DNA from: a virus
Length of the DNA stretch: 43,971 nucleotides
Direction: 5' to 3' (one strand)
Virus record (IMG/VR): IMGVR_UViG_3300036985_003843
Span: 1-43,971 of that record
The notes under the pieces are model-generated. The model made no database searches, was not told the origin of the DNA, and was given only the letters and a program-made list of their open reading frames with translations. This document shows, piece by piece, positions 7,340 to 43,971 of the stretch (positions are counted from its first letter, which is position 1; the number at the start of each line of letters is the position of its first letter). The position numbers and the translations under genes were made by a program.

Positions 7340-7346
7340 TTTTGCA

Positions 7347-7373
7347 GTACGGCTGTACTAGCCTCCATTCATG
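7347..7373 (+). repeat. Isolated copy of the two repeat words found in the 9.7-9.9 kb arrays
   Basis: GTACGGCTGTACTAG (7347-7361) is a perfect 15-base match to 9852-9866 in the 16-bp array. It is followed by CCATTCATG (7365-7373), the unit of the 9-bp array. Both words sit just upstream of the small terminase gene, suggesting a shared binding site. Confidence 0.85.
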
Positions 7374-9658: not shown

Positions 9659-9750
9659 GCCATTCATAGCCTGGGCCATTCATTCATGCCATTCATGCCA
9701 TTCATGCCATTCATGCCATTCATGCCATTCATGCCATTCATGCCATTCAT
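9659..9750 (+). repeat. Tandem array of a 9-bp unit GCCATTCAT
   Basis: Seven perfect head-to-tail copies run from 9688 to 9750. One further copy at 9675-9683 is separated by a TCAT insertion, and another lies at 9659-9667, giving nine in all. The period of nine bases, close to one helical turn, is iteron-like. Single copies of the core CCATTCAT lie around the small terminase gene (7365, 7973, 7993). It is not a CRISPR array, as there are no spacers. Confidence 0.93.
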
Positions 9751-9752
9751 GC

Positions 9753-9922
9753 GTACGTACGTACAGGCGTACTGGTACGTGGGGGTAGTACGGGCGCACT
9801 AAGGCACAGGCGTACTACAGTACAGGTGTATTGAAGTACAGGCGTACTAGCGTACGGCTGTACTAGAGTGTCAATGTACTAGCGTACGGTTGTACTACTG
9901 TTAGGGTGTAGTACGTACGTAC
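9753..9922 (+). repeat. Imperfect 16-bp repeat array bracketed by (GTAC)3
   Basis: Units of 16 bases start at 9763, 9790, 9806, 9822, 9838, 9854, 9870 and 9886, with a shortened unit at 9779-9789 and a remnant from 9902. The consensus is roughly ACAGGYGTACTAGNGT. GTACGTACGTAC stands at 9753-9764 and again at 9911-9922, enclosing the array. The regular phase and repeated TAC/GTAC core suggest cooperative protein binding, as at a replication origin or packaging site. Together with the 9-bp array and the AT-poor flank to 10042, it fills a 392-base gene-free gap. Confidence 0.88.
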
Positions 9923-9986
9923 ACCGGCAAGATCCTAGCGCCTGCGGCCATAAGTTAATCTAATCTGTCACAATAGACTTTTGGGG

Positions 9987-36443: not shown

Positions 36444-37631
36444 GTGGCCTCCAACAGCATCCGCCTACTGGATTTATTCCGGTACTACAAAACCGGCTTA
36501 CCCCACCAGATGGCCGCGATCACTGAACTAGAAGAAATCATCAATAAAGCCAACCCCAACATCCTGGGCCGCAACCAATCCTGGTTCAAAACCTGGAGTC
36601 AATCCGGCAAGCAACAGGATTACACACCAGCCATAAAACTCATCAAAGAGTTTGAGGGCTGCCACCTCACCGCATATACCGATCCTCTCCACGGCTGGAA
36701 CGTAGCAACCATCGGCTGGGGCACCACGCGCTACCCCGATGGCCGCAAAGTATCCCAAGGCGACATTCTCACTGCTGGCGAAGCAGACCGCCTACTGCTA
36801 CAAGAAATAGACACCATCGCCAAACGCCTCTCTAGCACCATTCCGCACTGGAGCGAAATGCGTCTTACGCAACAGTCGGCCCTAATCAGTTTCGCCTACA
36901 ACCTCGGCAGTGGTTTCTATGGCAGCACCGGATTTGAAACAATCAGCGCCCGCCTACGCGATAAAGCCTGGTCCGATGTCCCGGCTGCCCTAAAGCTATA
37001 CCGCAACCCCGGCACACCAGTAGAAGCCGGCCTACTGCGTCGCCGTGAAGCCGAAGGCGCCCTCTGGGCTCAAAACACCACAGTCACCCCAACCCAATCC
37101 ACCTCTACCTCGGTAAGCCTAAAAGTCCCCTACGAATACCAGCTAGATAACGGCCCCACCGGCTACCGGGAGTGCTTCAGCTCCAGTTGCGCGATGGTTG
37201 CCCGCTACTGGGGCAAGATTGCCGGCGACCACGAATACAACCGAGTCCGCCGCCAATTTGGCGACACCACCGACCCAAAAGCCCAAATCCTGGCACTAAA
37301 AACCCTGGGTCTCCGCGCCACATTTGAGATGGAGGGTACTGCCGCCATCTTGGAAAACGAAATCCGCTCGGGCTTCCCTACTCCAGTCGGCTGGCTACAC
37401 AAAGGCCCAGCAACTGCCCCAACTGGCTCAGGCCACTGGACCGTAGTAAGCGGCTTCACACCAACCCACTTCATCCACCAAGACCCAAACGGCGAAGCAG
37501 ACATGACGAACGGTGGCTACGTTAACCACAAGGGTGGCGCAAACATCGCATACTCCAGAAGCAACTGGCTACGCCGCTGGCTAGTCGATGGTCCCGAATC
37601 CGGCTGGTACTTAAAAGTCCGCCCCATCTAA
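36444..37631 (+). CDS. Two-domain endolysin: GH24 lysozyme + C39-like peptidase, 395 aa
   Basis: Residues about 60-210 are a T4-lysozyme-type GH24 domain: KEFEGC (E71), AYTDP (D80) and VATIGWGTT (T89) match the Glu-Asp-Thr catalytic set. Later, QQSALISFAYNLG is also typical. This domain cuts the glycan strand of peptidoglycan. After a Thr-rich linker (212-225), residues 226-395 look like a C39/C39_2 papain-fold peptidase: VPYEYQLDNG, ECFSSSCAMVARYWG (C244 probably the nucleophile), GHWTVVSGF (H331) and IHQDPNG (D347). It may cut peptide bridges. The GTG start 36444 has no signal peptide, so a holin is needed. Confidence 0.87.
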   Translation: MASNSIRLLDLFRYYKTGLPHQMAAITELEEIINKANPNILGRNQSWFKTWSQSGKQQDYTPAIKLIKEFEGCHLTAYTDPLHGWNVATIGWGTTRYPDGRKVSQGDILTAGEADRLLLQEIDTIAKRLSSTIPHWSEMRLTQQSALISFAYNLGSGFYGSTGFETISARLRDKAWSDVPAALKLYRNPGTPVEAGLLRRREAEGALWAQNTTVTPTQSTSTSVSLKVPYEYQLDNGPTGYRECFSSSCAMVARYWGKIAGDHEYNRVRRQFGDTTDPKAQILALKTLGLRATFEMEGTAAILENEIRSGFPTPVGWLHKGPATAPTGSGHWTVVSGFTPTHFIHQDPNGEADMTNGGYVNHKGGANIAYSRSNWLRRWLVDGPESGWYLKVRPI

Positions 37632-37633
37632 CT

Positions 37634-37855
37634 ATGAATCCCATCGAACAACCAGTCGAGCAGCAACTTAGCCAGAACTCCCGCGACCGCTGGCTACATG
37701 ACCGCTACAAAGCCAAGGACTGGAGCGGCCTACTAGAAGCCGCCCTCCTCCTTAACACGCTCTACCACATGGAGCGCACCAAATCAAACTGGGCAATCCG
37801 CGAAGCCGCGTCAAACCTCTCCAGCATCTGCGGCCTCGACCGCGACTCTGCCTAA
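37634..37855 (+). CDS. Hypothetical 73-aa protein, last gene of the late operon
   Basis: Starts three bases after the endolysin stop (MNPIEQPVEQQLSQNSRDRW) and ends at 37855, overlapping by 45 bases the tail of the convergent minus gene. The protein is helical with GLLEAALLLNTLYHMER in the middle. No family recognised. Confidence 0.6.
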   Translation: MNPIEQPVEQQLSQNSRDRWLHDRYKAKDWSGLLEAALLLNTLYHMERTKSNWAIREAASNLSSICGLDRDSA

Positions 37856-38269
37856 CGCCCCCTGGTACAACCCGGTGTACAACGAGTGCATGGGATGCCC
37901 CACCTGATCCCGTCCAGACTTCCTGTACAACTCCTCCAAATACTCATACCTAGCCTGATCCTCCATCACCCTCTCCCAGGGGGCTTTACAAGTTGTTTCA
38001 ACTGACTCAGACATTTCCGAAAGTGTGATAGGTAATTTAGAAGCAGCTCTTTCCCGTGCCCTCCGCGCTACAGAAGGACTGGTACTGGAGCGAATCAGGC
38101 GAGGTCTGACCTGAACAGGCGGCGGCACCTCAACCAGGCACCCACCATAAGCAGCTTCCGCAGAAGCGACAGCTGCCTCAACAGTATCTGCCTGGAACAA
38201 CTGGCGCAGTGGCCCACGACCGGGCAACCACACCAGCAGTTCAAAGTAGTTAGCGGCAGACTGGCTCAA
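37811..38269 (-). CDS. Hypothetical 152-aa protein, last gene of the right minus arm
   Basis: A TTG at 38269 overlaps the upstream TGA (TTGA), in keeping with operon coupling. The first part (YFELLVWLPGRGPLRQLFQA) is a compact beta/helix unit. The second part is basic and helical (RRARERAAS, YEYLEELYRKSG). It runs tail to tail into the last late gene. No family recognised. Confidence 0.55.
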   Translation of the reverse strand: MSQSAANYFELLVWLPGRGPLRQLFQADTVEAAVASAEAAYGGCLVEVPPPVQVRPRLIRSSTSPSVARRARERAASKLPITLSEMSESVETTCKAPWERVMEDQARYEYLEELYRKSGRDQVGHPMHSLYTGLYQGALGRVAVEAADAGEV

Positions 38270-38493
38270 CTTGCTTTACACCAGCTGCGGGGGTAGTCAG
38301 GCTCGTCCACGCTATGAACAGCGACAAAGCCACCAAGAGATTCAGCAACAAGTCGCGCCGCTTCGACGGCTCTCTCGTAGGTGACCCAGGTTCCCGCATC
38401 GTCTTTTTCGATTGTTAATCCGATACCAGAGCCACTGGAACCGTACAGCGCAGTGACGTACTGCCCATCCGCGACCACAAGATAGCGAGTCAT
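38266..38493 (-). CDS. Hypothetical 75-aa protein
   Basis: ATG 38493 starts MTRYLVVADGQYVTALYGSS. Strands and a helix (VTYERAVEAARLVAESLGG) give an alpha/beta look. A TTG just before the ATG is a weaker start. The leader contains the word TAGTGTTGCACA (minus strand, 38522-38511), so a promoter may lie between it and the upstream gene. Confidence 0.6.
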   Translation of the reverse strand: MTRYLVVADGQYVTALYGSSGSGIGLTIEKDDAGTWVTYERAVEAARLVAESLGGFVAVHSVDEPDYPRSWCKAS

Positions 38494-38571
38494 CAAAGTG
38501 AGTTAACTACTGTGCAACACTAGCCCCCAAGGGCAGCCTCAGTCAGACTTGTTACTAATTACAACTGAGTC

Positions 38572-38847
38572 TTATGAGTCTTGCGCTGTATCTGACCCAT
38601 CTTGCTTGGAGCGTTGGCGTCCTTGCACCCGTCGCTTTACCGAGTCTGCCCAGGCAGCATTATCGGCTGCTTCCGCAGCTCTGTATTCCGACAGAGGCAG
38701 TGCCTTTTCCAGTGCCGAGTACACCATCTCGCGCAGCAACGCCGTTGTCCGTTTGCCTTGCTGCTTAGCCATCTCATCCACCAGCAGATAGCGGTGGCGA
38801 TCCAACAGCAACTGGCAGTAGAACTTTTGCCCGTGGCGTAACGGCAT
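38572..38847 (-). CDS. Ribbon-helix-helix-like protein, 91 aa
   Basis: The first 50 residues (a strand QKFYCQLLLDRHRYLLVDEM followed by QGKRTTALLREMVYSALEKAL) fit a CopG/Arc-type ribbon-helix-helix fold, which binds DNA as a dimer. The C-terminus is charged and probably disordered (RRVQGRQRSKQDGSD). A role as an early transcription regulator is inferred. It sits alone, with gaps on both sides, consistent with its own promoter. Confidence 0.65.
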   Translation of the reverse strand: MPLRHGQKFYCQLLLDRHRYLLVDEMAKQQGKRTTALLREMVYSALEKALPLSEYRAAEAADNAAWADSVKRRVQGRQRSKQDGSDTAQDS

Positions 38848-38885
38848 GATGGCGTGAGTCTCTTTTGCTACACACTAGCACGGCT

Positions 38886-39089
38886 CTACCATCGCACATC
38901 CTCGTCCACGTTCTTTTTCCACGCTTGTCCCTGTGCCTTTCGTGCTCCAGCTCTCTGCCTGGAGCACCCGCGTCTTACGTCCCACGCCCACTCCAGGAAC
39001 ATGGCTGCCCGTTGCAGATCAGCGGTAGTAGCCCGCCGCATAGCTGCATGGAGCCGCTCCAGCACAATTTCTCTGCCGGTGCGGCTCAC
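38886..39089 (-). CDS. Hypothetical basic 67-aa protein, GTG start
   Basis: GTG 39089 lies four bases after the upstream stop. The helix IVLERLHAAMRRATTADLQR and the tail RRGCSRQRAGARKAQGQ are very basic. Longer readings in this frame overlap the 55-aa gene and were rejected. No family recognised. Confidence 0.5.
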   Translation of the reverse strand: MSRTGREIVLERLHAAMRRATTADLQRAAMFLEWAWDVRRGCSRQRAGARKAQGQAWKKNVDEDVRW

Positions 39090-39093
39090 TTTG

Positions 39094-39261
39094 TCACCAA
39101 TCTTCTTCTTTCGTGATTCTGACAAGTCGTAATGCCGGCCACAACTCCCGAATGGTGTAGTGCGCTGCAACCATGTTGTCAGCACATATCGTGGCCTTCT
39201 GCACTAAGCCGCCCGGTGTCCGTAACAGAGCAACATAACTCACTGGTGCTTTCCTGTTCAT
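39094..39261 (-). CDS. Hypothetical 55-aa protein
   Basis: ATG 39261 overlaps the DNA polymerase stop as ATGA. The protein (MNRKAPVSYVALLRTPGGLV ... YTIRELWPALRLVRI) looks like a small alpha/beta unit. No family recognised. Translation is probably coupled to the polymerase gene. Confidence 0.55.
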   Translation of the reverse strand: MNRKAPVSYVALLRTPGGLVQKATICADNMVAAHYTIRELWPALRLVRITKEEDW

Positions 39262-41087
39262 TTGGCGTCTACCCACGAATCAGCAGCTTTGGCTTCAGCC
39301 AAAGGCGGTACAGGCCCCAACCATTCGGCCTCAGCGTCCTGCATCACAGCAGCGAGTTGATGGCACCAAGCATCCGCGTGTTCTTCGCGCACCAGCAAAA
39401 TAACTTCGTCATGGATAACACCTGAGATGCGGACCAGTTCTTCGCCATCAGCTTTCAGGAGGGGCCAGAGTTTACCGAGGGTACGTTTGAGCACTGCGGC
39501 GCCGGCCCCCTGGATTGGGGTGTTGGAGCGGACCGTAAGCGAGTTGTAGTCGCCCGGTAGAATCCGCCGCAGCCCGGAGTTACGAATCCGGATAGCGGCA
39601 TCAGTACGACGGCGATTAGCTTGTGCAGCATTTTCGCGTTGCCACCGGCTGATCCCTGTATATGCGGCATGGAATTTGGCGCGGATCTCACCAGCTTCAT
39701 CGAGATCCATTTGTACCCCCATTCCCGCTGCATAGTTGCGTAATCCTCGGGCTCCCGATCCATACAACAGACCGAAGTTCGCAGACTTACTAATCTGGCG
39801 CATCTCTTTAGTGACTTCATCCTCTGGTACTCCATAAATTTGCATTGCCGTAACAGTGTGCAGATCCAGGCCATCCTGAAAAGCACGAATCATCAACGGA
39901 TCTTCGGCCTCGGCGGCTGCCAGCCGTAACTCCATTTGGGCGTAGTCCGCCACTACCAGTTTCCACCCGGCTGGCGCCTTTACACACGCCCGAAACCTGG
40001 AATCCCGAGGGATTTGTTGAAGATTGGGACCAATGCAAGACATACGCCCCGTATCTGCCCCCAACTGCATGTAACTAGCCTTGATAAACCCAGTGCTACC
40101 AAGGTGTTTCAGCAACGCCTCTACCATCTGGCGCCGCTTCTCCACCCGCTTCCACGCCAGGTACTCAGCCACAACCCTGTGATCCCCTACATACTCACGC
40201 AACGCAGCCCGACTGGCACTGGGTTTCCCCGTATTGTCTACCGGAATAGCACCCAATAGCGTCGTAAACACGTCCAACAATTGCTTGGGACTATTCAGAT
40301 TGAAGCCGGCCTGCTTCTTAGTCCCCTCCCTAACACTGCCCTCTGGCTTGGAGCGCAGATTAAACGTGCCATCAGAATCACGCGGCAGCTTCTTCCCTTC
40401 CGGTAGCGCCTCGTCCAGCGTGTCAATAAAAGCCTCTCCCAAACGCTCATTATCCGCAGCCAAATCCTGGTGCAACTGCTCCAGTTCATCACGCTCAAAC
40501 GGCATACCAGTACGCCACAGCTGCGCCATGGTCGGTAATGCCTTGCACTCCAGAAACCAAGCCTTATGCAGATTGCCCTCGGCCATCCGCTGATTGATTG
40601 GCCCATCCAACTGGGTCAACAGCTCAACGTCATAGGCGGCGTAGTCCAACTGACTGGGGGTCAGGTCACCAGTCCAGTCACTTTTTTGTTCTTCCTTTGA
40701 AATCTCAAGCTTGAGATAACGTTTTACAACATGCTGGAGCCCATGCTTCAGGTTGGGCAGTCCATTGGTAAGGATTCGACTAGCCAGCATGGTACATAGC
40801 ACGTCGCCTTCCGGGTAAAGCTCATGCTCCTGCAACCAGCCCAGGTCAAACACAGCATTGTGGGCTAACCAGTAACGCTTGATGGAGAAAAACTCCTCCA
40901 GGTCTTGCCAGTGATGGTCCTCCAAATCCCAGCAGTCAATCACCACGGGCATCCGATCCAGTGCGCCTAACTGCAATAAACGCAACCCGCCGTAGACCGG
41001 CTGAAGGCCGGTTGTCTCACAGTCAAACGCCACCGTGGTGGCATTGAACAGGGTGTGCAAATGCTCGATTCCTTGTAGGTACTTCAT
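39258..41087 (-). CDS. DNA polymerase, family A, with 3'-5' exonuclease, 609 aa
   Basis: Exonuclease motifs: FDCETTG (D22, E24), HNAVFD (D81) and YAAYD (Y149, D153). Polymerase motifs: A, VVADYAQMELR (D381); B, RQISKSANFGLLYG (R430, K434, F438); C, VIHDEV (D560). It replicates the phage genome. The residue matching E. coli Pol I F762 is Phe (F438). No 5'-3' nuclease domain is present, which is normal for phage Pol A. The size is near that of other phage members. It is the largest gene of the right minus arm. Confidence 0.96.
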   Translation of the reverse strand: MKYLQGIEHLHTLFNATTVAFDCETTGLQPVYGGLRLLQLGALDRMPVVIDCWDLEDHHWQDLEEFFSIKRYWLAHNAVFDLGWLQEHELYPEGDVLCTMLASRILTNGLPNLKHGLQHVVKRYLKLEISKEEQKSDWTGDLTPSQLDYAAYDVELLTQLDGPINQRMAEGNLHKAWFLECKALPTMAQLWRTGMPFERDELEQLHQDLAADNERLGEAFIDTLDEALPEGKKLPRDSDGTFNLRSKPEGSVREGTKKQAGFNLNSPKQLLDVFTTLLGAIPVDNTGKPSASRAALREYVGDHRVVAEYLAWKRVEKRRQMVEALLKHLGSTGFIKASYMQLGADTGRMSCIGPNLQQIPRDSRFRACVKAPAGWKLVVADYAQMELRLAAAEAEDPLMIRAFQDGLDLHTVTAMQIYGVPEDEVTKEMRQISKSANFGLLYGSGARGLRNYAAGMGVQMDLDEAGEIRAKFHAAYTGISRWQRENAAQANRRRTDAAIRIRNSGLRRILPGDYNSLTVRSNTPIQGAGAAVLKRTLGKLWPLLKADGEELVRISGVIHDEVILLVREEHADAWCHQLAAVMQDAEAEWLGPVPPLAEAKAADSWVDAK

Positions 41088-41135
41088 CGTGAAGCCTGGT
41101 AGGGCGTACTTGTTTAATGTAGCAGGTTAGTCCCC

Positions 41136-41597
41136 CTAGGAGGGACCGTATAAGTCACAATCCGTAGCAAAGTCGTCGCCGGCATCAGGAAAACCAAAGC
41201 TGCACCCATACCTACCCCAGTGCTGGCAGTCGATACAGAGCTTTTTGCCGTGACTTGGCAATCTGTGCCCCTGCTTCTCTAGATGGGCGTGGACCTCGGC
41301 GTAGACATGCCCCAGTCGAATCTGCGAGATGGCCTGGTGTGATATGCCGTAGTCCGCCGCCAATGCCAAGGTGCTTTTTTCTGACAGGATCACGTCAGCC
41401 GCTTCAGCAGGCGACAACGCACGTTTATGACTGACGCCACGCATACGAGGCCCTCTAACTGGAACAGCATTGTTTTCGTGTGTAGTCCACCTCGCTAAGC
41501 AAGCGTTGCAGTGGTGACGCCTTCGCCTTCGACCATCAATACAGTGCCGGCTGTCAACCACCCGTACATCCGTGGATTCACAACTCGGACAACTCAT
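41136..41597 (-). CDS. NrdR-like zinc ribbon fused to an HTH and a C-terminal Cys cluster, 153 aa
   Basis: Residues 1-42 closely follow the NrdR zinc ribbon: CPSC (C3, C6), VVDSRHCIDGRRRRR, CNAC (C30, C33) and WTTHE. In NrdR this ribbon binds the promoter boxes of ribonucleotide reductase genes. The nucleotide-sensing ATP-cone that follows in NrdR is missing. In its place stands a phage-type HTH (about 60-98, VILSEKSTLALAADYGISHQ) and then CIDC...C...C (C121, C124, C132, C147), another possible metal site. It is probably a DNA-binding regulator. Its neighbours include dCTP deaminase. ATG 41597 is preferred over GTG 41600. Confidence 0.72.
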   Translation of the reverse strand: MSCPSCESTDVRVVDSRHCIDGRRRRRHHCNACLARWTTHENNAVPVRGPRMRGVSHKRALSPAEAADVILSEKSTLALAADYGISHQAISQIRLGHVYAEVHAHLEKQGHRLPSHGKKLCIDCQHWGRYGCSFGFPDAGDDFATDCDLYGPS

Positions 41598-41778
41598 CAC
41601 TCAGTCGCTGGTAAACACCCAAAATTGTGCTGCGGTGATAACCGCAACACTGCAAAAAGTCGGTGAAAGACTCGATCACATCGCTTGCCTTTACCCCCAC
41701 AACTTTCGTGGTGTGGCAAGTAAGAATCTGCGCCGAGTCATCTGACCGAATCATCTGAAACTTGTACTGCTCGCTCAT
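41578..41778 (-). CDS. Hypothetical 66-aa protein
   Basis: ATG 41778 overlaps the upstream TGA; its end overlaps the zinc-ribbon gene by 20 bases. It starts MSEQYKFQMIRSDDSAQI and continues with a helix (VIESFTDFLQCCGYHRS). The stretch with FxxFLxxCGY recurs in small phage proteins of unknown function. Confidence 0.62.
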   Translation of the reverse strand: MSEQYKFQMIRSDDSAQILTCHTTKVVGVKASDVIESFTDFLQCCGYHRSTILGVYQRLSDELSEL

Positions 41779-42017
41779 TGTTTGTACTCCGGTCTGTCTA
41801 GTGTGTCAATCAAGCGATTCAAATAGAAGCGGGCTTTACCGGCATCCATTGCTGGATCATCCTTAAGCCACAGACGGCTTATGTACTTAAGGACTTGCCA
41901 CTGCAACCCACCGACAACTGCATCAGGGGCTTGCTTAACGCAATCCTCGATAAAATCAATGACCTCAATTCTCCCAGCCGTGTAGTGACTGGGATGGTTC
42001 ACCATGTCCTGGTTCAT
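41775..42017 (-). CDS. DUF3310 (SaV-like) protein, 80 aa
   Basis: The start MNQDMVNHPSHYTAGRIEVI, with the motif N-H-P-x-H-Y, followed by FIEDC and LKYISRLWLKDD (a KYxxR-type helix), is the signature of DUF3310, a small family found in many phages near nucleotide-metabolism genes. Function is unknown. The ATG overlaps the dCTP deaminase stop, and its own TGA overlaps the next ATG. Confidence 0.88.
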   Translation of the reverse strand: MNQDMVNHPSHYTAGRIEVIDFIEDCVKQAPDAVVGGLQWQVLKYISRLWLKDDPAMDAGKARFYLNRLIDTLDRPEYKQ

Positions 42018-42526
42018 AGCTTGGAAGCAGTAACTTGTTGGTCGAAGTTGTAGTGGCCCACGATGGAGTAATCCTCCGCAGGTTTAGCTGACATGACGTG
42101 AAATACCAGTTGCCCAATCCGCATTCCCGGCCATAGCTGCACAGGATGTAAAGCCCGAGCGTTTTGCAGTTCCAGTGTGAGTTTGGAACCACTCCAGCCC
42201 GGATCACAGTAACCGGCCATCAAGTGCTCAATACCAGAGCGAGCCCTGGAGCTTTTAAGCGCGAACTGACCGGCCAGAAACGACGGTAGGAAGAAAGTCT
42301 CGACAGTTTCCGCAAGGATGAACTCACGTGGATGGAGCAGAAACGGTCTCTCTTCAGTAAACCCTGCAATGGAGCGGGGCTGCATGTGCGAGGTTAAAGC
42401 TGTTTCGATAAGGATGTTCTCACCGAGTCTCACATCGAGACTGGCGGGATTGACTAGAGCTGGATCGTAAGGAGTCACAAGGCCCTCTTCACAGAGGGCC
42501 CGGATCTCGGAATCACACAGGATCAC
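42014..42526 (-). CDS. dcd: dCTP deaminase (Dcd/DUT family), 170 aa
   Basis: Motifs NPASLDVRLG (26-35), KSSRARSG (91-98), the substrate loop YCDPGWSG and LTLELQN with E119 (the likely catalytic Glu), and WPGMRIGQLVF match dCTP deaminases. The enzyme converts dCTP to dUTP, feeding dTTP synthesis, and some members also remove the triphosphate. The length is near normal. Overlaps of four bases with both neighbours show that it is part of one operon with DUF3310 and the HTH gene. The phage thus adjusts host nucleotide pools, though it has no reductase of its own here. Confidence 0.9.
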   Translation of the reverse strand: MILCDSEIRALCEEGLVTPYDPALVNPASLDVRLGENILIETALTSHMQPRSIAGFTEERPFLLHPREFILAETVETFFLPSFLAGQFALKSSRARSGIEHLMAGYCDPGWSGSKLTLELQNARALHPVQLWPGMRIGQLVFHVMSAKPAEDYSIVGHYNFDQQVTASKL

Positions 42527-42879
42527 GACTTAACGGCGGTTTGCTGGAGCGTGACATGCTTCCAGGTCTTGCCCCACTTGATCGCATTGATCGTGGTGAG
42601 ATGCACCTTGTAGTCACGGCTAATGGCAGTAGCACCTTCACCGGCAGCAAGCCTGGTTTTGATCTGGATCACTTGCGCCATGTCCAGGGCACGGTACTTC
42701 CTGCGGTGAGACACACGAGTCTTGCTTTGAGACTCCCGTTTCTTGGTTGGCGCGGGAGCTTTAACTGCCGTTGCGGGACCGTCAAAATTTACGGTCTGGG
42801 ACGACTCCAGGATTCCTTGGATGGTCTTGATGCTGTCCGTCAGGGTGCGGACTTGTGTATCAGAAAGAATGGTGAGCAT
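42523..42879 (-). CDS. HTH DNA-binding protein, 118 aa
   Basis: The C-terminal 50 residues (AQVIQIKTRLAAGEGATAIS then RDYKVHLTTINAIKWGKTW) are a phage-type HTH, similar in pattern to that in the zinc-ribbon protein. The middle is a basic Lys/Arg linker (TKKRESQSKTRVSHRRKYR). The N-terminal helix may dimerise. Probably an early regulator. ATG 42879 follows a 31-base gap, possibly with a promoter. Confidence 0.65.
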   Translation of the reverse strand: MLTILSDTQVRTLTDSIKTIQGILESSQTVNFDGPATAVKAPAPTKKRESQSKTRVSHRRKYRALDMAQVIQIKTRLAAGEGATAISRDYKVHLTTINAIKWGKTWKHVTLQQTAVKS

Positions 42880-42910
42880 AGAGCTTGGTAAAGCGTTGGT
42901 AGTGTAGTAC

Positions 42911-43237
42911 CTAAGGAGTGTTTGAGGGGTACTGCCGGCGCAAATTCAACAAAGTTTCTTCAGGTAGCTGAAGTATTTGTTGCATTGCCATCCGGGCCAA
43001 TACTTCGTGGTTGATGCTTTCGCTACTGACGAAGGCATCCACCAGGCCAACAAAGAGCTGGTTCAGAGTACGAGGTTTGACCCAGCTTGTATCGCAGGGG
43101 ATGGGTTCAGTCCCGTAGGACCAGTCGTCGTAAGACTCTTCGTTACGAAGGGCCTTAGCCGTCGTCTGCCCAATCCGACTGATCCACCATTTCCCAGTTG
43201 TTGACTCGTTCACTGATAAGGCGTCGCATTCCGGCAT
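42911..43237 (-). CDS. Hypothetical protein of up to 108 aa, start uncertain
   Basis: The C-terminal 75 residues (LRNEESYDDWSYGTEPI ... PRTLNQLFVGLVDAFVSSE ... MAMQQILQLPEETLLNL) look like a real acidic, helical protein. The only clear ATG (43237) makes it overlap the upstream gene by 83 bases; a start near 43155 would be expected but I see no standard codon there. No family recognised. Confidence 0.5.
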   Translation of the reverse strand: MPECDALSVNESTTGKWWISRIGQTTAKALRNEESYDDWSYGTEPIPCDTSWVKPRTLNQLFVGLVDAFVSSESINHEVLARMAMQQILQLPEETLLNLRRQYPSNTP

Positions 43238-43424
43238 CGGTCGCAGGCATCACGTCATCTTCACAAAGGTAGAAGGAGCCTCGGCACACAGCAGGGCCCC
43301 ATTCGGCGGGGTCGTAGTCGGTTTGAGACAGGACCACAACAGAGTCCTCCACAACAGCCTCCACGTCACAACGGCCATCAGGACTAAAGCTAATGTCATA
43401 AATTTCAAGGACATCGGGATTCAC
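43155..43424 (-). CDS. Hypothetical acidic 89-aa protein
   Basis: ATG 43424 overlaps the upstream stop as ATGA. It begins MNPDVLEIYDISFSPDGRCD, continues with strands (EAVVEDSVVVLSQTDYD) and ends in an acidic stretch (VDQSDWADDG). A beta-rich first half is likely. No family recognised. Confidence 0.58.
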   Translation of the reverse strand: MNPDVLEIYDISFSPDGRCDVEAVVEDSVVVLSQTDYDPAEWGPAVCRGSFYLCEDDVMPATDAGMRRLISERVNNWEMVDQSDWADDG

Positions 43425-43660
43425 TTCAGCACCTCAGCAGGTAAAAGCACAGCGCCCATGTCGTCCATCCAAACATCCCAGGACATCTTCAGGAACTGTT
43501 CAAGATCACGCAGCTGCTCTAGCTGGTGTTCGTCGTACGTGGTGGACAACCCAAGTTCTTGGCTGTACTTAATCGCCTGCTCCATGCGGAGAATCGAGTA
43601 GCGGACAGCGAAGTACCAGGGGCTAAGTTTTTCGTTGGGCACGGAGGTGTGGGTAGCCAC
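43421..43660 (-). CDS. Hypothetical protein of about 79 aa, first gene of the right minus arm
   Basis: The clear part runs WYFAVRYSILRMEQAIKYSQ ... YDEHQLEQLRDLEQFLKMS, helical and acidic. I take GTG 43660 as start because it lies just past the T tract of the upstream terminator; ATG (MEQAIKYSQ) further in is possible. No ribosome site is evident. No family recognised. Confidence 0.5.
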   Translation of the reverse strand: MATHTSVPNEKLSPWYFAVRYSILRMEQAIKYSQELGLSTTYDEHQLEQLRDLEQFLKMSWDVWMDDMGAVLLPAEVLK

Positions 43661-43668
43661 GGTCGTGT

Positions 43669-43706
43669 AAAAAAGAAAAAAGGCGTGAGGCTCTCGCCTC
43701 CACACC
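43669..43706 (-). terminator. Intrinsic terminator closing the left minus operon
   Basis: On the minus strand GGTGTGGAGGC (43706-43696) pairs with GCCTCACGCC (43691-43682), giving a roughly 10-bp stem with one bulge and one G-U pair and a four-base loop. TTTTTTCTTTTTT follows (43681-43669). It lies 38 bases after the stop of the junction-spanning HTH gene. Confidence 0.78.
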
Positions 43707-43743
43707 CATAGTGTTGCACACAAGCGGCCCTTAGGCTACTACT

Positions 43744-43971
43744 TCAGTTGTAAAACTTCGCATTCCTTTGGTGCGAGCTGCGCCAGGTAAACGAGGCACT
43801 GGTTTTGGTGGGGTGGTCAAGGGCGTCGTAGATGCACTTGGGGGTGACGTAGACGGCGCGGGCTGCTGCGCTGATCGAGGGATAGGTCGTGCCTGTTTCG
43901 ACGCAGAGCACTGGGCGGCGCTGCTGGTGCTTGGGCAGCCCGAGGGCGGCGATCTCTTTGGCAAGGGTGAT
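43744..43971 (-). CDS. HTH DNA-binding protein with a NUMOD1-like C-terminus (3' part; crosses the contig junction)
   Basis: This is the 3' part of the junction-spanning gene, ending at TGA 43744-43746. Bases 43845-43971 duplicate 1-127, so only 43744-43844 is unique here. It encodes the NUMOD1-like stretch and the tail (YDALDHPTKTSASFTWRSS). Joined at the repeat, the two parts give one uninterrupted 210-residue frame. Confidence 0.75.
   Translation of the reverse strand: MTLAKEIAALGLPKHQQRRPVLCVETGTTYPSISAAARAVYVTPKCIYDALDHPTKTSASFTWRSSHQRNAKFYN
43845..43971. repeat. Right copy of the 127-bp terminal direct repeat
   Basis: Identical to bases 1-127. Removing one copy gives a 43,844-bp circle. 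Confidence 0.93.

Follow-up and report, generated by a model that had tools for sequence, protein, structure and literature searches.

So far, NrdR-type zinc ribbons are known as the part of a nucleotide-sensing protein that delivers its output. In the structure of S. coelicolor NrdR bound to DNA, R12, R26-R29, and R37 contact phosphates, and base reading falls to D15 and R17; the D15A variant binds DNA more strongly and less selectively, the R17A variant does not bind, and dimers of the ATP-cone are needed to bridge two ribbon pairs over tandem boxes (PMC9110341). Here, we analyze a protein encoded in the window, by which we mean the whole 43,971-nucleotide viral sequence (IMG/VR record IMGVR_UViG_3300036985_003843). 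It shares with NrdR (TIGR00244; PF22811 plus PF03477) the ribbon fold, the zinc ligands, and the N-terminal position of the ribbon, but it has an HTH plus a Cys4 module where NrdR has the ATP-cone.

Small zinc-ribbon transcription factors also occur in phages, namely the Ogr/Delta late activators of P2-like phages (PF04606), and Ogr acts via the C-terminal domain of the RNA polymerase alpha subunit. The window protein resembles them in being a small phage zinc-ribbon protein but differs in its C-terminal part and in its hosts, and PF04606 matched no family member scanned with Pfam. There is also a weak HTH likeness to phage HNH homing endonucleases (phrog_59), from which the window protein differs in having no HNH nuclease domain. 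A published drawing of viruses of the STIV group includes an NrdR gene (PMC5894146).

The window belongs to a cyanophage, its portal being closest to those of KBS-S-2A, S-2L, and S-H1 and its lysozyme region closest to S-CBS phages. The features of the locus are as follows.

39258-41087, minus strand: DNA polymerase A-type ORF, 609 aa, the next gene downstream of the ribbon gene (sequence reading)
41136-41600, minus strand: ORF with NrdR-type ribbon, HTH, and Cys4 module, 153 aa from the ATG at 41597, stop codon at 41138-41136
41157-41237, minus strand: C-terminal Cys4 module, residues 121-147 (invariant in family alignments; no named family)
41298-41423, minus strand: HTH-like block, residues about 59-100 (AlphaFold helices, weak PHROG match, alignment)
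41472-41597, minus strand: zinc ribbon, residues 1-42 (PF22811, E=8.9e-11; Foldseek match 7p37_A)
41578-41778, minus strand: 66-aa gene directly upstream of the ribbon gene (no convincing family match)
41775-42017, minus strand: DUF3310 protein (PF11753, E=4.6e-14)
42014-42526, minus strand: dCTP deaminase (PF22769, E=6e-30)
42523-42879, minus strand: 118-aa HTH protein (weak HTH_38 match, below the cut-off)

The ORF at 41136-41597 is real and lies on the minus strand, a point absent from the earlier note on this DNA; a GTG at 41600, one codon before the ATG, is also possible as a start. Compared with close relatives, the gene shows a dN/dS of roughly 0.05-0.12, lowest in the Cys4 part, and the sequences indicate that the family is under strong purifying selection.

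As in NrdR, the zinc ribbon is N-terminal and contains two CxxC pairs (C3, C6, C30, and C33), together with R12, D15, R17, R25-R27, and R36. Residues 1-41 match the NrdR ribbon family PF22811 with 42.0 bits, above the cut-off of 27.2. A phmmer search of PDB sequences with the window protein returned significant matches to NrdRs only, and the family profile matched NrdR at 1e-8. The AlphaFold2 model, built on a shallow alignment of 14 rows, has a mean pLDDT of 65, with about 73-85 in the ribbon, about 80 in the HTH region, and below 50 at the C-terminus. In this model, the ribbon superposes on S. coelicolor NrdR (7p37_A) with an rmsd of 0.9 Å over 42 columns at 52% identity. The top four Foldseek matches are all NrdR models or structures. 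The earlier note had placed residues 1-42 very close to the NrdR ribbon and suggested HHpred or AlphaFold as a check; the AlphaFold2 model agrees with it. Profile and predicted structure identify the ribbon as NrdR-type well above chance level. Nevertheless, the protein itself is not an NrdR, since it scores 36.4 bits against the NrdR equivalog TIGR00244, which requires 124.65, and all of this score comes from residues 1-42.

A search for the ATP-cone (PF03477) found none in the window protein and none in 17 records, with a positive control in 12 of 14 genomes. The lack of this domain implies that the window protein does not sense nucleotides and that no means is known by which it could form tetramers across tandem boxes. 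The residues equivalent to the DNA contacts of NrdR are largely kept, including R12, R36 (R36/37), both base-reading residues (D15 and R17), and three of the four arginines of the RRRR motif, of which the fourth is His and which is preceded by a one-residue deletion. Because the ribbon is NrdR-type and retains the base-reading residues and most of the phosphate-contacting arginines, binding of the window protein to NrdR-like palindromic DNA is plausible. An attempt to trace the ribbon to cyanobacterial NrdR was dropped: 42 residues are too few for it, and identity is 53% to cyanobacterial and Streptomyces NrdR alike.

The region after the ribbon agrees with the earlier description of an HTH and a C-terminal Cys4 cluster standing where the ATP-cone would be. 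Four helices are predicted by AlphaFold2 (63-71, 76-83, 87-94, and 100-108), forming an HTH-like helical block at residues 63-108, and this HTH weakly matches phrog_59, a profile of HNH-endonuclease HTHs in PHROG. The window Cys4 module, with four invariant cysteines, reads C121-x2-C124-x2-W127-x4-C132-x2-GFPD-x(8)-C147 and fits the family pattern, a ribbon followed by C-x2-C-x2-W-x(3-7)-C-x2-GFP-x(n)-A-x2-C. It has no Pfam match and is modelled at a pLDDT below 50, too low to define its fold.

Relatives were found via short peptide patterns among IMG/VR contigs, most of which are fragments, and in the cyanophage S-LBS1. Their identity to the window protein ranges from 94-95% (L001-L003) through 81% (L004), 49% (L012), 45% (L022), and 43% (L013-L017) to about 35% (L024, L025, and L149) and 31-34% (L007-L011, L020, and S-LBS1 A39). 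Of the 13 members scanned, every one has a PF22811 match at E<0.1. Among relatives that are only 31-50% identical, all eight cysteines, R17, R26, R27, R36, and the GFP motif are invariant, and R12 varies freely across the family. Position 15 is Asp in the window, L001, L002, L004, and L012, Glu in L013, L015, L022, L024, L025, and L146, Gln in L007, L008, and L011, and Gly in L020. The HTH is missing from L022 (97 aa) and L146 (128 aa), which match each other at E=4e-17 and retain both ribbon and Cys4 module. These two modules thus make up the core of the family, with the HTH as an optional part.

The S-LBS1 homolog A39 (ATS93211.1, annotated 'hypothetical protein') contains all three modules, ribbon, HTH, and Cys4, but is 30% identical to the window protein, has QSR with YRR where the window has DSR with RRR, and has a sigma-70 gene nearby; a term search of the main text of the S-LBS1 genome paper (PMC6157547) found no discussion of it. 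No bacterial or archaeal relative, prophages included, was confirmed in 11.3 million contigs. Among the matches listed for 386 cyanobacterial genomes, at most the best 10 candidates per genome, none reached the Cys4 module. Our literature search found no paper combining NrdR, phage, and zinc ribbon. The proteins combining ribbon and Cys4 module are an undescribed viral family.

The ribbon gene is placed within a replication/early gene cluster. The 66-aa gene overlaps it by 20 bases, as it also does in L002, L004, and L012, and the two genes are likely translationally coupled. The order DUF3310, 66-aa gene, ribbon gene, (92-aa gene), PolA is common to the window, L002, L012, and L016 groups, and the A-type polymerase ORF keeps its place relative to the ribbon gene in L002, L012, and L016. 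The 118-aa HTH protein weakly matches phrog_59, the profile that also weakly matches the HTH of the ribbon protein. The region 37600-43971 contains no sigma-70-like promoter, with 3.3 expected by chance, and the early module may use promoters of a different kind.

In three lineages of relatives (L024, L025/L149, and L146), a gene resembling the C-terminal domain of the RNA polymerase alpha subunit (alpha-CTD, PF03118) adjoins the ribbon gene or sits just downstream of it. The coordinates below are those of the respective records.

L146, 889-1263: alpha-CTD-like gene
L025, 3627-4004: alpha-CTD-like gene
L024, 1876-2232: alpha-CTD-like gene
L149, 5504-5881: alpha-CTD-like gene

The PF03118 match is above the cut-off in L146 (E=1.4e-5) and just under it in L024 and L025/L149. 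Every locus found with such a gene has a ribbon gene upstream of it, and the two are possibly a phage polymerase-modifying pair. The model of the alpha-CTD-like protein (pLDDT 52) is too poor to serve as evidence and was set aside. A sigma-70 gene is present in six of the 13 records searched, and a sigma factor may be common in cyanophages; the window record contains neither a sigma-70 gene (Sigma70_r2) nor an alpha-CTD gene.

We consider that this protein has about an even chance of being a nucleotide-independent phage DNA-binding regulator composed of an NrdR-type ribbon and a Cys4 module specific to phages, between which an HTH may or may not be present. The ribbons would pair as in NrdR, gripping a short palindrome, the HTH would add contacts or specificity in the members carrying one, and the Cys4 module may bind a protein partner, possibly RNA polymerase. 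With the sensor missing, the protein would act whenever it is made, and it would probably activate or repress phage (or some host) promoters in a cyanosiphovirus, not exert dNTP-gated control of reductase genes. The identity of the ribbon, the kept contact residues, the lack of an ATP-cone, the invariant cysteines, the persistence of ribbon and Cys4 module in members devoid of the HTH, the purifying selection, the cyanophage setting, and the RNA polymerase context in relatives all argue for such a regulator; set against them are the lack of sigma-70 and alpha-CTD genes in the window, the low pLDDT of the Cys4 module, an alpha-CTD match over the cut-off in one of the three lineages with a poor model of that protein, and the fact that no target was found. 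A conserved viral family of sensor-less ribbons would show that the DNA-kinking module works alone, and it would provide a natural construct to separate DNA recognition from nucleotide control.

The main rival, which we regard as rather improbable, is that the protein binds DNA as an accessory factor in replication or recombination and is co-expressed with the genes for DNA polymerase and DUF3310. The position of the ribbon gene between DUF3310 and the polymerase, conserved in the window, L002, L012, and L016 groups, fits a replication factor equally well as a regulator; DNA-kinking zinc ribbons could serve origin architecture, and the window contains an origin-like repeat array at 9681-9923. 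Nevertheless, the gene is not beside the polymerase in the S-LBS1, L022, L024, and L025 lineages, and a search of 11 other records did not find the array.

A bolder form of the regulator reading, to be held tentatively and at a low probability, is that the kinking ribbon of NrdR was freed from sensing and rewired to RNA polymerase. The ribbon and Cys4 module would then bind promoter palindromes and recruit or redirect the polymerase, and one branch would do so with an adjacent alpha-CTD-like subunit. If the link to RNA polymerase is true, cyanophages would encode a phage transcription factor of a new kind.

The earlier note had proposed that a sensor-less NrdR ribbon occupies or competes for the NrdR boxes of the host and so alters reductase expression and dNTP supply during infection. 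If the protein instead acts on the host nrd promoter, it would give the virus a switch over the supply of dNTPs, but we find this unlikely. Several findings favour the proposal: the window protein retains both D15 and R17, dCTP deaminase is close by, upstream and separated from the ribbon gene by two genes as the earlier note had it, and neither PF02867 (class I/II) nor TIGR02505 (class II monomeric) matches a reductase in the window, a linear record that may be incomplete, or in any other record searched. The potential target is also widespread, with NrdR in 12 of 12 picocyanobacterial host-type genomes and a class II reductase in 11 of them. However, position 15 drifts within the family, with Asp in the window and Gln in S-LBS1, a phage that infects Synechococcus, whereas all 12 picocyanobacterial NrdRs examined (L110-L121) have Glu, compared with Asp in the studied NrdRs, which suggests that Glu may be the local norm. 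The dCTP deaminase has the same place in L004. The L014/L016/L017 records, which share the rest of the gene order, do not have it, and neither does the S-LBS1 record, so that the dNTP neighbourhood is local. The window protein is also devoid of the ATP-cone that links ribbons into tetramers.

The DNA targets speak against host-box competition as well. We scanned with a 16-bp consensus of the published motif, which can detect a known case since it found the E. coli nrdA box, 93 bases upstream at two mismatches (the second box was not seen). At four or fewer mismatches, the window contains one site, compared with 4.5 expected, and no tandem pair, and related records contain two isolated three-mismatch sites in 160 kb. 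The search of host genomes proposed earlier yielded no canonical box at three or fewer mismatches at the nrdJ loci of ten picocyanobacteria, and no convincing conserved motif upstream of host nrdJ; the picocyanobacterial NrdR operator may differ from the textbook box. A palindrome at 41631-41646, 34-49 bases upstream of the ribbon start, was rejected as an autoregulatory site, being inside the 66-aa gene and not kept in L012/L013. Overall, the NrdR-type ribbon and its DNA-contact residues stand from the earlier reading, the host-box and dNTP mechanism is not favoured, and a new mode of viral or host gene regulation is more likely than an imitation of the NrdR switch.

It is very improbable that the protein derives from a mobile element (a homing-endonuclease HTH, a transposase zinc ribbon) and plays no part in regulation itself, as might be thought from the weak match of its HTH to an HNH-endonuclease PHROG and from NrdR-like ribbons in an apparent multi-copy element of one cyanobacterial genome, because the gene is single copy, syntenic, coupled to its upstream gene, and under purifying selection, and Pfam detected no HNH or transposase catalytic domain in the window protein or any family member scanned. 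In that cyanobacterial genome (G027, contig C1), an NrdR-like ribbon recurs in ORFs 105-134 aa long in at least eight places, which looks like a mobile-element protein.

The array at 9681-9923 was set aside as an operator shared by the family, being absent from the 11 other related records. It begins with CATTCATGC repeated perfectly eight times in tandem, after which AGTAC-N4-GTACT dyads form a cluster, and it looks like an origin or operator array. The window contains nine sites of this dyad, compared with 0.6 expected, and an isolated perfect copy occurs at 7346-7359, in the gap ahead of ORF 7407.
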